From NCBI GenBank assembly GCA_035620555.1, contig DASPGQ010000221.1:1-45764 (forward strand): 45,764 bases of DNA. Reading direction: 5' to 3'. The stretch is from Vicinamibacteria bacterium. Lineage in GTDB: Bacteria > Acidobacteriota > Vicinamibacteria > Marinacidobacterales > SMYC01. Shown piece after piece: positions 36,592-41,480 of the stretch (position 1 is the first letter of the stretch; every line of letters begins with the position of its first letter). The notes beneath the pieces were generated by a model. It worked only from the letters and a program-made list of their open reading frames with translations. It ran no database searches and was not told the origin of the DNA. The translations under genes and the position numbers were made by a program.

Positions 36592-36951
36592 TCAAGGGTA
36601 GACCCACTTCACCTCTTGCGCCAGACGACGTGCAAAGAGATTCTTTTGAGCTTGCATCCTATCCCACTCGGCCTCGGTGTAGATGAGAAGATCGGCGGGA
36701 ACCGGAAGCTCTTCCAGATTCCAGGTGAGAGCGCGGCGCTCGAAGGGCTCGGTCGAACGGCTGACGATCGCCACCAGGTCCAGATCGCTTCCCACACCCC
36801 AGTCACCGCGGGCGTAGGAGCCAAAGTAGCCGAGACGGCGGAGCTCCGGGTGTGCTATCGCTTCCCGGGCAACCCAGTCCCGCAAGGCTCTTTCCACCAG
36901 GTCGCGGTTAGGCCATACGATTACGCACGAATTCAAGGATCTCACCGGCAT
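36592..36951 (-). CDS. MNT-type nucleotidyltransferase
   Basis: A 119-aa minimal nucleotidyltransferase. The catalytic motif GSYARGDWGVGSDLDLVAIV (about residues 46-65) has the GSxARG and SDxDL signatures with both metal-binding Asp. In HEPN/MNT modules this protein is the antitoxin and silences HEPN, in some cases by adenylylating it. The ATG at 36951 overlaps the HEPN stop by 44 bases; a GTG at 36897 is an alternative that would give about 101 residues. It is followed by lptD. The pair is bracketed by a direct repeat of the lptD leader. Confidence 0.88.
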   Translation of the reverse strand: MPVRSLNSCVIVWPNRDLVERALRDWVAREAIAHPELRRLGYFGSYARGDWGVGSDLDLVAIVSRSTEPFERRALTWNLEELPVPADLLIYTEAEWDRMQAQKNLFARRLAQEVKWVYP

Positions 36952-37306
36952 AGCGGATCGCCTCGCCGCTCTGAATGGGGCCGTAATGCTCGAACGGGGC
37001 TCCCTCGGGATGTCCATTCGGGTAACGACTCGGAACGTAGAAGTTGTCGAGGACTCGCGCTTTCTCCACCAAGTCCTGCGGGACTTCGATGGGGAGCTCT
37101 CGCAGCAGCCGGGCGACAACCTGTCCCCAGGCTTCCTGACCGAGGTGGAGATGGAGCGCTTTGGCCGCTTTCTCGGCGGATTGCTGGGCCGCGAAGCAAG
37201 CCCACTCATGACGTCCGCCGGATTGAGACGCTCTCGAATGCTCAAGGTCCCGTTCGGCTTGAGCGTACCAATCTGGCGCCCGGTTTGTCACGATATTCAC
37301 TCCCAT
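36908..37306 (-). CDS. HEPN-domain protein
   Basis: A 132-aa all-helical protein. APDWYAQAERDLEHSRASQS and HEWACFAAQQSAEKAAKALH (about 10-52) are the HEPN core, followed by LGQEAWGQVVARLLRELP. Many HEPN proteins are RNases and form toxin-antitoxin pairs with MNT partners; the canonical R-x(4-6)-H RNase motif is not obvious here, so toxicity is uncertain. The ATG at 37306 lies inside the end of a truncated copy of the lptD leader peptide. A GTG at 37291 (starting MTNRAPDWYAQ) looks like the family start and is a strong alternative. It overlaps the MNT gene. Confidence 0.87.
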   Translation of the reverse strand: MGVNIVTNRAPDWYAQAERDLEHSRASQSGGRHEWACFAAQQSAEKAAKALHLHLGQEAWGQVVARLLRELPIEVPQDLVEKARVLDNFYVPSRYPNGHPEGAPFEHYGPIQSGEAIRYAGEILEFVRNRMA

Positions 37307-37537: not shown

Positions 37538-37549
37538 AGAGACATATGA
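37519..37549 (+). promoter_or_regulatory. Palindromic operator at vapBC
   Basis: Perfect 8-base inverted arms TCATATGT (37519-37526) and ACATATGA (37542-37549) flank 15 bases that contain the -10 box; the second arm includes the vapB start codon. This is the layout expected for autorepression by a ribbon-helix-helix antitoxin-toxin complex. Confidence 0.65.
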
Positions 37550-37791
37550 AACGCACCACAATCTTCGCCGACGAAGAGGTCTTGAGGGAGCTCAAGGTGA
37601 TCGCGAAGAAGGAGAAATCGAACCTCTCCGTCACCATTAGAAAGGCTCTCGAAGACTACGTGAGCAGGCATCGGCGCGGACGCCCCCTTCCTTCCTTTGT
37701 CGGGGTGGGGCGAAGTGGAAGGAAGGACGTAGCGGAGAGGGCCGAGGAGCTGCTGTGGGAGCGGGATGGCTCCCGACGCGAACGCCGTTGA
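37546..37791 (+). CDS. vapB: Ribbon-helix-helix antitoxin (VapB-like)
   Basis: An 81-aa protein starting MKRTTIFADEEVLRELKVIA, with a beta-strand (RTTIFA) and two helices (EEVLRELKVIAKKE and LSVTIRKALEDYVSRH), the CopG/ribbon-helix-helix DNA-binding fold. The C-terminal part (GRSGRKDVAERAEELLWERD) would wrap the PIN toxin. It probably binds the 37519-37549 palindrome as a dimer and represses its own operon. The stop overlaps the toxin start (TTGA), so the two proteins are translated together. Confidence 0.88.
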   Translation: MKRTTIFADEEVLRELKVIAKKEKSNLSVTIRKALEDYVSRHRRGRPLPSFVGVGRSGRKDVAERAEELLWERDGSRRERR

Positions 37792-38204
37792 ACAACATCC
37801 TGGCCGACACCGGACCGCTCTATGCTCTCGCGGATGAGAGCGACGAATGGCATGTCCGGGTTCGGACGTTTCTCGAAGAGTTCTCACCGAGGCTCGTCGT
37901 CCCCGTTACCGTACTTCCGGAAGTGACTTACCTTCTGAGCAAGTTCCTCGGAAGCTCGGCCGAGATCCAATTCGTCGAGTCCGTCCATCGCGGAGAGCTG
38001 CTCCTGGAAGCTGTGACCCGGGCCGACCTGGCACGCTCGATCGAGGTGATGCGCCGCTATGTGGATGCAGAGCTCGGGTTCGTCGACGCGTCCGTTGTCG
38101 CCGTGGCCGAGCGTCTTCGTCTCACGAACGTCCTGACCGTGGATCGCAAGCACTTCGGGATGGTGCGCCCAAGGCATTGTCGGGCCTTCTCACTCTATCC
38201 CTGA
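37788..38204 (+). CDS. vapC: PIN-domain ribonuclease toxin (VapC-like)
   Basis: A 138-aa PIN-domain protein from a TTG start overlapping the vapB stop. The four acidic residues of the Mg2+ site are visible: D7 in ILADTGPLYAL, E45 in VLPEVTYLL, D100 in LGFVDASVVA and D119 in TVDRKHF. VapC toxins cleave tRNA or rRNA when the antitoxin is degraded. The frame is open upstream to 37755 but those residues overlap vapB. The gene is followed after 45 bases by the radical-SAM gene with its own -10 box. Confidence 0.88.
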   Translation: MNNILADTGPLYALADESDEWHVRVRTFLEEFSPRLVVPVTVLPEVTYLLSKFLGSSAEIQFVESVHRGELLLEAVTRADLARSIEVMRRYVDAELGFVDASVVAVAERLRLTNVLTVDRKHFGMVRPRHCRAFSLYP

Positions 38205-38249
38205 GAGTCCAGGTCTGGAGTGGAGCTCGTCGACTTGTATACTGGGGCC

Positions 38250-39638
38250 ATGCGATCGACTCCGAGGAGCGTCCTGCTCCTGTCGTGCTACGAGCTGGGC
38301 CGGAAACCTCTCGGGCTAGCAGTGCCTCTGGCCTTCTTGAGGCGCAGCGGATTTTCCGCACGTGGCATCGACCTTTCGGTCGACCCCCTGGACGAGGCGG
38401 CGGTCGGAAGGGCCGATTTCGTCGGGATCTCGGTTCCGATGCATACCGCCCTGCGTATCGCGCTTCGGCTTTTGCCTCGGATTCGGGCGCTCAATCCGTC
38501 CTGCCATATCTGCTTCTATGGACTGTACGCGACGCTGAACGCCGAGCTGCTTCTCGCGAAAGGCGCCGACTCGGTCCTGAGCGGGGAGTGCGAGGAGGCT
38601 CTGGTCGAGCGGGTCGCCTCCTCAAGAGATCTGGAGAGTCGACCGCGGCCTTTTCGCGTTCGACTCGACTTTCCCGTGCCGGAGATTGCCCAGCTTCCGC
38701 GCCTCGAGCACTACGTGCACTTGGACCGGGGCGACGGCCACCACGTCCCCGTCGGTGCCATCGAGACCACTCGCGGTTGCCTCCATCTCTGCCGCCATTG
38801 CCCCATCCCGCCGATCTACGAGGGGCGCTTCTTCGTCGTGCCCAGGGAAACGGTCCTTGCCGACATCCGGCAGGCGGTCGGGGAAGGCGCGCGCCACATC
38901 GATTTCGTCGATCCCGATTTCCTGAACGGACCCGGTCATGCCCTCGCCATCGTGCGGGCGATGCATCGGGAGTTTCCCGATCTGACGTTCGATTTCACCG
39001 CGAAGGTCGAGCACCTCGTACGGCACCGTGGCATCCTGAAGGAATTCGGCGATTCCGGATGCCTGTTCATCGTCACTGCGGTCGAATCGCTCAGCGACCA
39101 CGTGCTCGAGGTGCTCGACAAAGGCCACTCACGAGCCGACGTGCTCGAAGTGCTCCATGCCACGCGAAGTGCGGGCATCGGCCTGCGACCGACGTTCGTG
39201 CCTTTCACCCCTTGGACGACCCTCGGCGATCATCGTGAGCTACTGCAATGGATTGCGGAAGAGCGGCTCGTCGACGACGTGGAACCGGTGCAACTGGCTC
39301 TGCGGCTGCTCGTTCCCCCGGGCTCGCTCCTCCTCGGAAGGCCGGCCCTGAGCCCGCATCTCGGAAGCCTCGATCCCGAGGCACTGACTTACCGATGGGA
39401 GCACCCCGACCCGGAGATGGATCGGCTCCAACGAGCGAGCCAGAAGCTCGTGGAGAACGCTCTGGTCGAGGGGTGGCCCCATCGCCAGACTCTGGGCAGT
39501 CTCGCCGAGCTCACGGGCGCCTCGCTTCCTGAGCTCGGAGCACCGCGGGCGACTCCGAGACTGACCGAAGCCTGGTTCTGCTGAGCCGAGCCCACCCGGG
39601 ACCAGTTGGGTCCCATCGAACGTCGGCAGCAGCTATAA
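38250..39638 (+). CDS. Radical-SAM protein with predicted Cys-Sec-Ala-Glu-Pro tail (selenoprotein)
   Basis: A predicted 462-aa protein read through TGA at 39582-39584 as selenocysteine (residue 445) to TAA at 39636-39638. Residues 1-125 resemble a B12-binding-like Rossmann domain (VLLLSCYELGRKPLGLAVPL, DFVGISVPMHTAL, GADSVLSGECEEAL) without the DxHxxG cobalamin motif. The radical-SAM cluster is C177-LHL-C181-RH-C184, then PIPPIYEGRF. Just before and after the TGA the codons read Trp-Phe-Cys-TGA-Ala-Glu-Pro. From memory, databases carry a radical-SAM family named for a CUAEP or CCAEP tail, of unknown function, which fits exactly. Without recoding the protein ends at 39584 (444 aa). A TATACT box lies six bases before the ATG. 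The nfu-like gene starts eight bases after the TAA. Confidence 0.85.
39582..39627 (+). promoter_or_regulatory. SECIS-like hairpin downstream of the recoded TGA
   Basis: The stem GGGACC (39598-39603) pairs perfectly with GGTCCC (39609-39614) around the five-base loop AGTTG, with G at loop position 2. A lower helix GCCGA (39585-39589) / TCGGC (39623-39627) brings the TGA to the base of the structure. The TGA-to-loop distance is 19 bases. These values fall in the published range for bacterial SECIS elements as I recall it. Confidence 0.65.
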
Positions 39639-39645
39639 TCGAGGC

Positions 39646-40236
39646 ATGAATACGATCCGTATCACTGCCGAACCCAAGGACGCCAATCACTGCCGCTTCG
39701 TCGTGGACCGTCCCGTCTACCCGGACGGCTCGGTTTTCTTCGGCACGGCCGAGACCGCATCGGGCTCACCTCTGGCCGAGAAGCTCTTCACTATCGACGG
39801 CGTCCAGTCCGTCCTCATTCAGGACGATATCGTGACCGTGGCGGCCGCCACCGGCGGAAACTGGGCACCGATCGCGAAGCAGATCGGCGCCACGATCCGG
39901 GAGGTGCTGACGAGCGGGATAAACCCCGTTTCCGACGACGTCCTCGATTCGATTCCCGATCCCGAGACGATCAAAAAGAAAGTCCAGAACATTCTGGACC
40001 GGGAGATCAACCCGGCAGTGGCAGCTCACGGAGGTTGGATCGAGCTCATCGACGTTCAGAAGAACGAAGTCTTCATCCGCATGGGTGGTGGCTGCGTCGG
40101 CTGCGGCATGGCGGACGTCACCCTCAAGCAGGGCGTCGAGCGCACGATCCGCGAGGCGATCCCGCAGGTGGGCGCCATCATGGACACGACCGATCACGCC
40201 TCGGGACGAAACCCCTACTACAGCCCGGCCAAGTAA
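39646..40236 (+). CDS. Nfu-type Fe-S cluster scaffold/carrier protein
   Basis: A 196-aa protein with an Nfu N-terminal domain (about 1-95: PVYPDGSVFFGTAETASGSP, LFTIDGVQSVLIQDDIVTV) and a C-terminal NifU domain (about 105-185: INPAVAAHGGWIELIDV, then MGGGCVGCGMADVTLKQGVE), with cluster-binding C150 and C153. It carries an Fe-S cluster to target enzymes. It starts only eight bases after the TAA of the radical-SAM gene, so it may supply clusters to that enzyme. A TATAAT box six bases before the ATG could also give a separate leaderless transcript. It converges with the ATP-grasp gene eight bases away. Confidence 0.92.
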   Translation: MNTIRITAEPKDANHCRFVVDRPVYPDGSVFFGTAETASGSPLAEKLFTIDGVQSVLIQDDIVTVAAATGGNWAPIAKQIGATIREVLTSGINPVSDDVLDSIPDPETIKKKVQNILDREINPAVAAHGGWIELIDVQKNEVFIRMGGGCVGCGMADVTLKQGVERTIREAIPQVGAIMDTTDHASGRNPYYSPAK

Positions 40237-40244
40237 GCGGATTC

Positions 40245-41480
40245 TTACTCGATTCTGAAGTCGAGCCGGCGGTGGGCGTCCCGCAGAGCACGCTCCGCCT
40301 CTCCGGGCATATCGGCCCGGGCAAAGATGAACCCGAGATAGCTCGATCCCTCGGGAAGCGGAATCAACCTTTGTCCCCGATGGGCGGTGATGACCACCTC
40401 GGACACTCCTTCGACGGCGCCCGCCGCGGCGAGGCCAGTCACTTCCTCGAGAACCCCTCTTTTCGGTATCGGGATCATCATGACGCCCGCCGCTCGCGAC
40501 TCGCGGCTGATTCCTTTCACGTCTTCTCCGATCGCATGCTTCAGTATCAGCTCTTCGAGAGAAAGCCCCAGACCGAATCGAAGGACCCTGGAGCACAAAC
40601 CGCCAATCGAGCGTCCGGCGATCTCGATGACCGTCGGGCGGCCGCCCTCGGGCAATCGAAGCTCGGCGTGAATTGGACCGTGCCGCAGTCCCAGAGCTTC
40701 GGCGGCGCGGGTCGTCACTTCGAGAATGTCTTCCTGGACAGACTGGTCCAGCCTCGAGGGCGTCACGTAGATGGTCTCCTCGAAGTACGGGCCGTCGAGC
40801 GGATCCGGCTTGTCGAAGAGCGCCAGCGGCTGCAAGCGACCTTCGGTCAGAAGCGCTTCGACGGCAACCTCGACACCGGGAACGAAGTCTTCGATCAAAA
40901 CGAGCTCGGCCTGCTCGCCGCCTCGCCTCCTGAGCTCGGGTGAGGACAGCAACTCGCAAAGCCACTGGAATCCTTCGGAGAAGCTCTGGACATCGTCGGC
41001 GCGAACCACCCCGCGACTTCCCGACAGGAACACCGGCTTGAGGACGACCGGGTACCGCAACGTCGCCCCGAGAGGAACCGGGCTCTCCGCCGTGGACGCC
41101 ACGCGAAATCGTGGAGATGGAACTGCGGCGGAGGCGAGCGCCTCTCGCATGCGATGCTTCGAGCGGGCCCGTTCAGCCGCGAGAGATCCATGATGGGGAA
41201 GTCCGAGACGCGAAGAGATGGAAGCGGCGACGACAGCGGATTCCTCGTCCACGGGCACGATTGCGCTCAGCGGATGAAGCGCGTGAAACCGCGAGACTCG
41301 CTCGGCCGCTCCCGCGGGGTCTAGGAGATCAATCGTCAGAAGTCGGGTTTGCTGAAGCGGCTCGAAAGTGCTCGCCTCCTCCGATGCGACCACGACCTCG
41401 ATTCCGAGTCGATCGGCCGCATACAAGAAGTCTCGCGAACGGTAGGTCGAGGTGGGAAGCAACAGCAAGACCCGATGCAT
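40245..41480 (-). CDS. ATP-grasp domain ligase of unknown substrate
   Basis: A 411-aa ATP-grasp enzyme. An N-terminal pre-ATP-grasp domain (MHRVLLLLPTSTYRSRDFLY) is followed by the ATP-binding core: YPVVLKPVFLSGSRGVVRAD (about 146-165) with its Lys and flexible loop, LVLIEDFVPGVEVAVEALL, and HAELRLPEGGRPTVIEIAGR with the Mg2+-binding acidic/Asn-like cluster (VIEIAGRSIGG). The C-terminal 100 residues resemble the second C-terminal domain of L-amino-acid-ligase-type proteins. It should form an amide or similar bond via an acyl phosphate. The substrate is unknown. It lies tail to tail with the nfu gene; a TAACTT hexamer is five bases before the ATG. Confidence 0.85.
   Translation of the reverse strand: MHRVLLLLPTSTYRSRDFLYAADRLGIEVVVASEEASTFEPLQQTRLLTIDLLDPAGAAERVSRFHALHPLSAIVPVDEESAVVAASISSRLGLPHHGSLAAERARSKHRMREALASAAVPSPRFRVASTAESPVPLGATLRYPVVLKPVFLSGSRGVVRADDVQSFSEGFQWLCELLSSPELRRRGGEQAELVLIEDFVPGVEVAVEALLTEGRLQPLALFDKPDPLDGPYFEETIYVTPSRLDQSVQEDILEVTTRAAEALGLRHGPIHAELRLPEGGRPTVIEIAGRSIGGLCSRVLRFGLGLSLEELILKHAIGEDVKGISRESRAAGVMMIPIPKRGVLEEVTGLAAAGAVEGVSEVVITAHRGQRLIPLPEGSSYLGFIFARADMPGEAERALRDAHRRLDFRIE

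Follow-up and report, generated by a model that had tools for sequence, protein, structure and literature searches.

A covarying hairpin behind the in-frame TGA of a CUAEP-tail radical SAM gene is very probably a bacterial SECIS element

The window analyzed here, the whole 45,764-nucleotide stretch of contig DASPGQ010000221.1 (assembly GCA_035620555.1) from a Vicinamibacteria bacterium, contains a gene for a B12-binding radical SAM protein whose reading frame runs through a TGA codon, with a hairpin directly behind that codon and two conserved neighbors farther downstream. The features are listed below.

38220 to 39638, forward strand: predicted CUAEP-tail B12-binding/radical SAM selenoprotein gene, with the frame continuing through the TGA to TAA 39636-39638 (NF040546, Pfam, translation with TGA as U).
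39582 to 39584, forward strand: TGA codon, very probably read as selenocysteine, U455 of protein P0001 and second residue of C-U-A-E-P (TGA and Cys codons in homologs).
39598 to 39614, forward strand: upper hairpin of the putative SECIS element, GGGACC-AGTTG-GGTCCC, with G at loop position 2 (sequence, RNAfold, homolog covariation).
39585 to 39627, forward strand: lower helix GCCGA/TCGGC, 39585-39589 with 39623-39627, found in the window sequence only and unconserved (RNAfold).
39646 to 40236, forward strand: Nfu/NifU-like protein, conserved neighbor (Pfam Nfu_N, NifU).
40245 to 41480, reverse strand: ATP-grasp ligase with an L-amino-acid-ligase C-terminal domain, conserved neighbor (Pfam ATP-grasp_4, LAL_C2).

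The start of the radical SAM gene is uncertain and lies at GTG 38220 or, likelier, at ATG 38250. Reading the TGA as selenocysteine (Sec) lengthens the 454-residue frame by 18 residues, giving the ending ...WFCUAEPTRDQLGPIERRQQL. The product carries B12-binding and Radical_SAM domains according to Pfam, and it matched NF040546 ('CUAEP/CCAEP-tail radical SAM (seleno)protein') with 615.3 bits (cut-off 500) over profile positions 1-467 of 468, tail included, which makes it a full-length member of a family that NCBI has already named a selenoprotein. In the AlphaFold model the body is confident (mean pLDDT 91), and confidence is lower from residue 451 onward. Upstream of the gene, positions 37546-38204 of the forward strand encode a ribbon-helix-helix protein and then an overlapping PIN-domain protein, likely a toxin-antitoxin pair, and no relatives of the PIN protein were found near other family members; a HEPN-domain protein and an overlapping nucleotidyltransferase-domain protein at 36592-37306 on the reverse strand are likely a HEPN/MNT-type pair.

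The original prediction, made from the window sequence, described a perfect 6-bp stem with an AGTTG loop carrying G at its second position and starting 19 bases after the TGA, and its coordinates proved exact. Read directly from the sequence, the TGA occupies 39582-39584, the two stem strands 39598-39603 (GGGACC) and 39609-39614 (GGTCCC), and the loop 39604-39608, for a TGA-to-loop distance of 19 nt and an upper-hairpin energy of -10.2 kcal/mol. RNAfold reproduced this upper stem along with the lower helix 39585-39589/39623-39627, and added a further helix, 39578-39582/39628-39632, that includes the T of the TGA. The lower 5-bp helix, which had been proposed to hold the TGA at its base, thus folds in the window but is not conserved: among 21 homologs with long tails it pairs fully in the window alone, with mean pairing equal to that of slid registers, and neither of the two same-family genomes examined has it, so we rejected it as part of the element. 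Many homologs have their real stop directly after the stem, 36 nt from the start of the Sec codon, and the conserved element is therefore the upper hairpin alone.

Folding energy of the single sequence was too weak to serve as proof of a SECIS element. The region 39560-39640 was modestly unusual against shuffled sequences (z of -1.66), and in this GC-rich window, whose two strands together contain 1124 TGA triplets, 4.5% of these triplets were followed by a stem at least as strong that also conformed to the SECIS model, and 1.6% by one as stable as -10.2 kcal/mol. The significance of the hairpin comes instead from its presence in homologs, since the fold of one sequence says little by itself.

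Sampling of 396 genomes from the phylum found the NF040546 family in 65, and it also occurred in contigs named as Rokubacteria, Nitrospinota, Nitrospirota, Verrucomicrobiota (Akkermansiaceae) and Poribacteria. In the 67 genes with a readable tail, window included, the codon at the position of interest was TGA in 53, TGC in 13 and TGT in one, and Cys454, position 455, Glu457 and Pro458 were invariant over 62 aligned proteins when Sec was counted as Cys. Both the TGA and the hairpin occur in two further genomes of the window's own family; the TGA is therefore no sequencing error. One family gene (locus L076, genome G001) apparently has no C-X-A-E-P tail, its frame continuing past TIPYPSQ, perhaps because of a frameshift or an altered gene end.

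Comparison of these genes bore out the two expectations that TGA homologs would share a stable fold at the same place with compensatory changes and that Cys homologs would lack it. Nearly all of the 53 TGA homologs have the hairpin at a fixed position, with a loop of the form AG(T/G)T- at 19-20 nt from the TGA. When seven columns (16-22 against 28-34, numbered from the codon, gap-free) were scored for pairing, TGA genes formed on average 6.04 of 7 pairs (n=53) and Cys genes 3.14 (n=14; Mann-Whitney p 1.5e-7), and slid registers gave 2.6-3.8 pairs in the TGA genes. Alignment of 49 TGA rows, which omits four loci whose tails are arranged differently (L062, L069, L070 and L072, all counted in the 53-gene test), showed 89.5% of stem cells paired and 80 cells changed on both sides, values of which neither was reached in any of 500 shuffles; slid registers in these rows paired 36-55% of cells. 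The 11 Cys rows, aligned without three rows that have very short tails and were counted in the 14-gene test, were 46.8% paired, which is the shuffle level, and contained no equal hairpin. RNAalifold recovered the stem unaided from the TGA rows and found no structure in the Cys rows. A tree of the enzyme body, with the tail excluded, gave at least about 31 switches from one Watson-Crick pair to another (5, 9, 4, 11 and 2 across the five pairs that vary). Finally, a covariance model built without the window scored the window hairpin at 51.7 bits, the sole strong match in the genome; the other matches (L098, L099 and L100, at most 24 bits) had TGA frames unconvincing as genes and were set aside as chance. 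The stem is weaker or differently placed in some TGA rows (L062, L069, L070, L072 and L078), and a search of Rfam returned no matching family.

Because these bases also encode the tail, and homologs conserve the Q codon at the loop, such a stem might also be a by-product of protein conservation, with the codons of the tail (x-G/D-Q-L/F-D/G-P) self-complementary by chance. When we recoded the same peptides with synonymous codons drawn from each gene's own usage, however, the stems became clearly weaker: the effect was significant in 39 of 53 TGA genes (p<0.05, combined p 2.8e-39) versus 0 of 14 Cys genes (combined p 0.98). This recoding served as the test of co-conservation of RNA and tail, which the original prediction had said would be telling. 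The residues flanking the loop also swap jointly in complementary sets (G..D, D..G, G..G and E..A; for example, GGT..GAC versus GAC..GGT) that follow RNA pairing, a pattern that protein constraint would not explain, and Cys homologs retain CAEP yet lose the stem. We therefore regard a protein by-product as very improbable. The family tree requires six Sec/Cys changes and holds only three independent pairs on well-supported branches, which run in the expected direction in most random pairings, so that loss of the hairpin together with the change to Cys rests on few independent events.

If the TGA were instead an ordinary stop, the hairpin could be a terminator or a regulatory structure for the downstream gene, as the start of the Nfu gene about 60 nt after the TGA might suggest. 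Against this, there is no T run after the stem in the window sequence, the post-TGA peptide AEP is conserved and matched in the homologs with a Cys codon, and the hairpin is kept whatever lies downstream, be it the ATP-grasp gene on either strand, other genes, or an arrangement with Nfu upstream. An ordinary stop is thus exceedingly improbable. Stems downstream of stop codons can promote readthrough in other systems, and the hairpin could accordingly be a general stimulator of UGA readthrough by a near-cognate tRNA and not a SelB site. This we consider barely credible, given that the codon alternates with Cys only, that the small G-containing loop and its spacing match the bacterial SECIS model, and that genes for tRNA-Sec, SelA, SelB and SelD are present, with the Cys type linked to loss of SelA. 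Specifically, the window's genome encodes a tRNA-Sec (74.4 bits, anticodon TCA), SelA (547 bits), SelB (350 bits, model positions 1-578 of 581, C-terminal part included) and SelD (286 bits). SelA was missing from 5 of 10 Cys-type versus 1 of 48 TGA-type genomes (Fisher p 3e-4, a value made optimistic by related genomes), the single TGA-type genome without it being 75% complete, and tRNA-Sec followed the same trend (missing from 5 of 10 versus 5 of 48).

The remaining reading, that the hairpin is a bacterial SECIS element and UGA 39582 is decoded as selenocysteine, is on these comparisons of sequences very probably correct. Under the published numeric limits (PMC13188914), the apical loop has 3-9 nt with G in one of its first two positions, mostly followed by G/U, the upper stem has 4-16 bp, the energy is -7.5 kcal/mol or lower, and the UGA-to-loop distance is 16-37 nt. 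With its 5-nt loop, 6-bp stem, 19-nt spacing and -10.2 kcal/mol, the window hairpin lies within every one of them, which makes SelB-dependent Sec insertion the best explanation. Among the TGA homologs, the upper stem is mostly 6-8 bp, the loop carries G at column 24 in 50 of 53 and T or G at column 25 in 53 of 53; the energy limit was passed by 42 of 53 TGA versus 1 of 14 Cys homologs. Covariation of the stem and its dispensability with a Cys codon, both found here, are likewise as expected of a SECIS element. We infer from the sequences that SelB binds the hairpin and that Sec is inserted in the cell. The hairpin would form in the mRNA directly 3′ of UGA 39582, SelB with GTP and selenocysteinyl-tRNA would dock on the small G-containing loop, and the UGA would be read as selenocysteine, with 17 more codons translated up to TAA 39636; the resulting C-terminal end would be ...WFC-Sec-AEPTRDQLGPIERRQQL. 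In the enzyme, a radical SAM protein of the B12 type, the Cys-Sec pair at its end probably takes part in redox or ligand chemistry.

The ends of some homologous genes are arranged differently. Many (for example, L032, L049, L053 and L067) have a second TGA as their true stop, located directly behind the stem and 36 nt from the Sec TGA, so that two TGAs of opposite meaning fall within 13 codons. In L070 and L072 (genomes G327 and G263), a TAG stop follows only 15 nt after the start of the Sec TGA, and the stem GGCCG-GTT-CGGCC, with its loop 22 nt after the TGA, lies wholly past the TAG and over the end of a convergent ATP-grasp gene; these two close genomes, the only ones of this kind, possibly carry an untranslated bacterial SECIS element.

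As a kind, the element is ordinary: it is a standard bacterial SECIS that leaves knowledge of such elements unchanged. We found no earlier description of this hairpin among the papers searched, none of which contains the name CUAEP, and the main text of a review on prokaryotic selenoproteins from 2026 is silent on both CUAEP and NF040546. The results provide strong comparative evidence, with the Cys homologs as a control, that this little-studied family uses its TGA as a selenocysteine codon, and they show how a SECIS element is accommodated where the Sec codon is C-terminal and the stop follows within 36-60 nt. The conserved partners, the ATP-grasp ligase and Nfu, offer a handle on the enzyme's product. 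A relative of the ATP-grasp ligase was seen at 44 of 67 loci and one of the Nfu-like protein near 25 of 67, counts that are lower bounds, since the flanks at many loci spanned just 1.5 kb; order and orientation of these neighbors vary among loci. This association suggests that the CUAEP radical SAM, ATP-grasp ligase and Nfu-like genes belong to one pathway. More speculatively, and on balance doubtfully, the enzyme might be an ArsL relative of the B12 radical SAM type that works through its Cys-Sec tail and forms, with the ligase and the Nfu-like protein, a hitherto undescribed pathway of biosynthesis found across several bacterial phyla; selenocysteine would there handle a metalloid or other soft ligand in the making of an amino-acid-derived compound.

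Among known systems, the window gene and NF040546 have in common the C-Sec-A-E-P tail and the alternation of Cys and Sec, and we found no difference between them. The nearest other NCBIfam model is that of ArsL, the arsinothricin biosynthesis radical SAM protein (NF040542), which is predicted to attach a 3-amino-3-carboxypropyl group to arsenite (PMC8552651). We rejected membership in this family, as the match of 279.1 bits over residues 18-414 is under the cut-off of 450, and the alignment ends ahead of the C-Sec-A-E-P tail. The closest solved folds, AprD4, MgmA, OxsB and TsrM (TM 0.54-0.70 on the query), are structures of radical SAM proteins, of which several depend on B12, with 16-19% identity to the window protein. 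With the consensus model of bacterial SECIS elements (PMC13188914, Fig. 2A; bSECISearch), the present element shares the 5-nt loop with G at position 2 followed by U/G, the upper stem of 6-8 bp and the 19-nt spacing; unlike that model, it lies very near the C terminus and is without a conserved lower helix.
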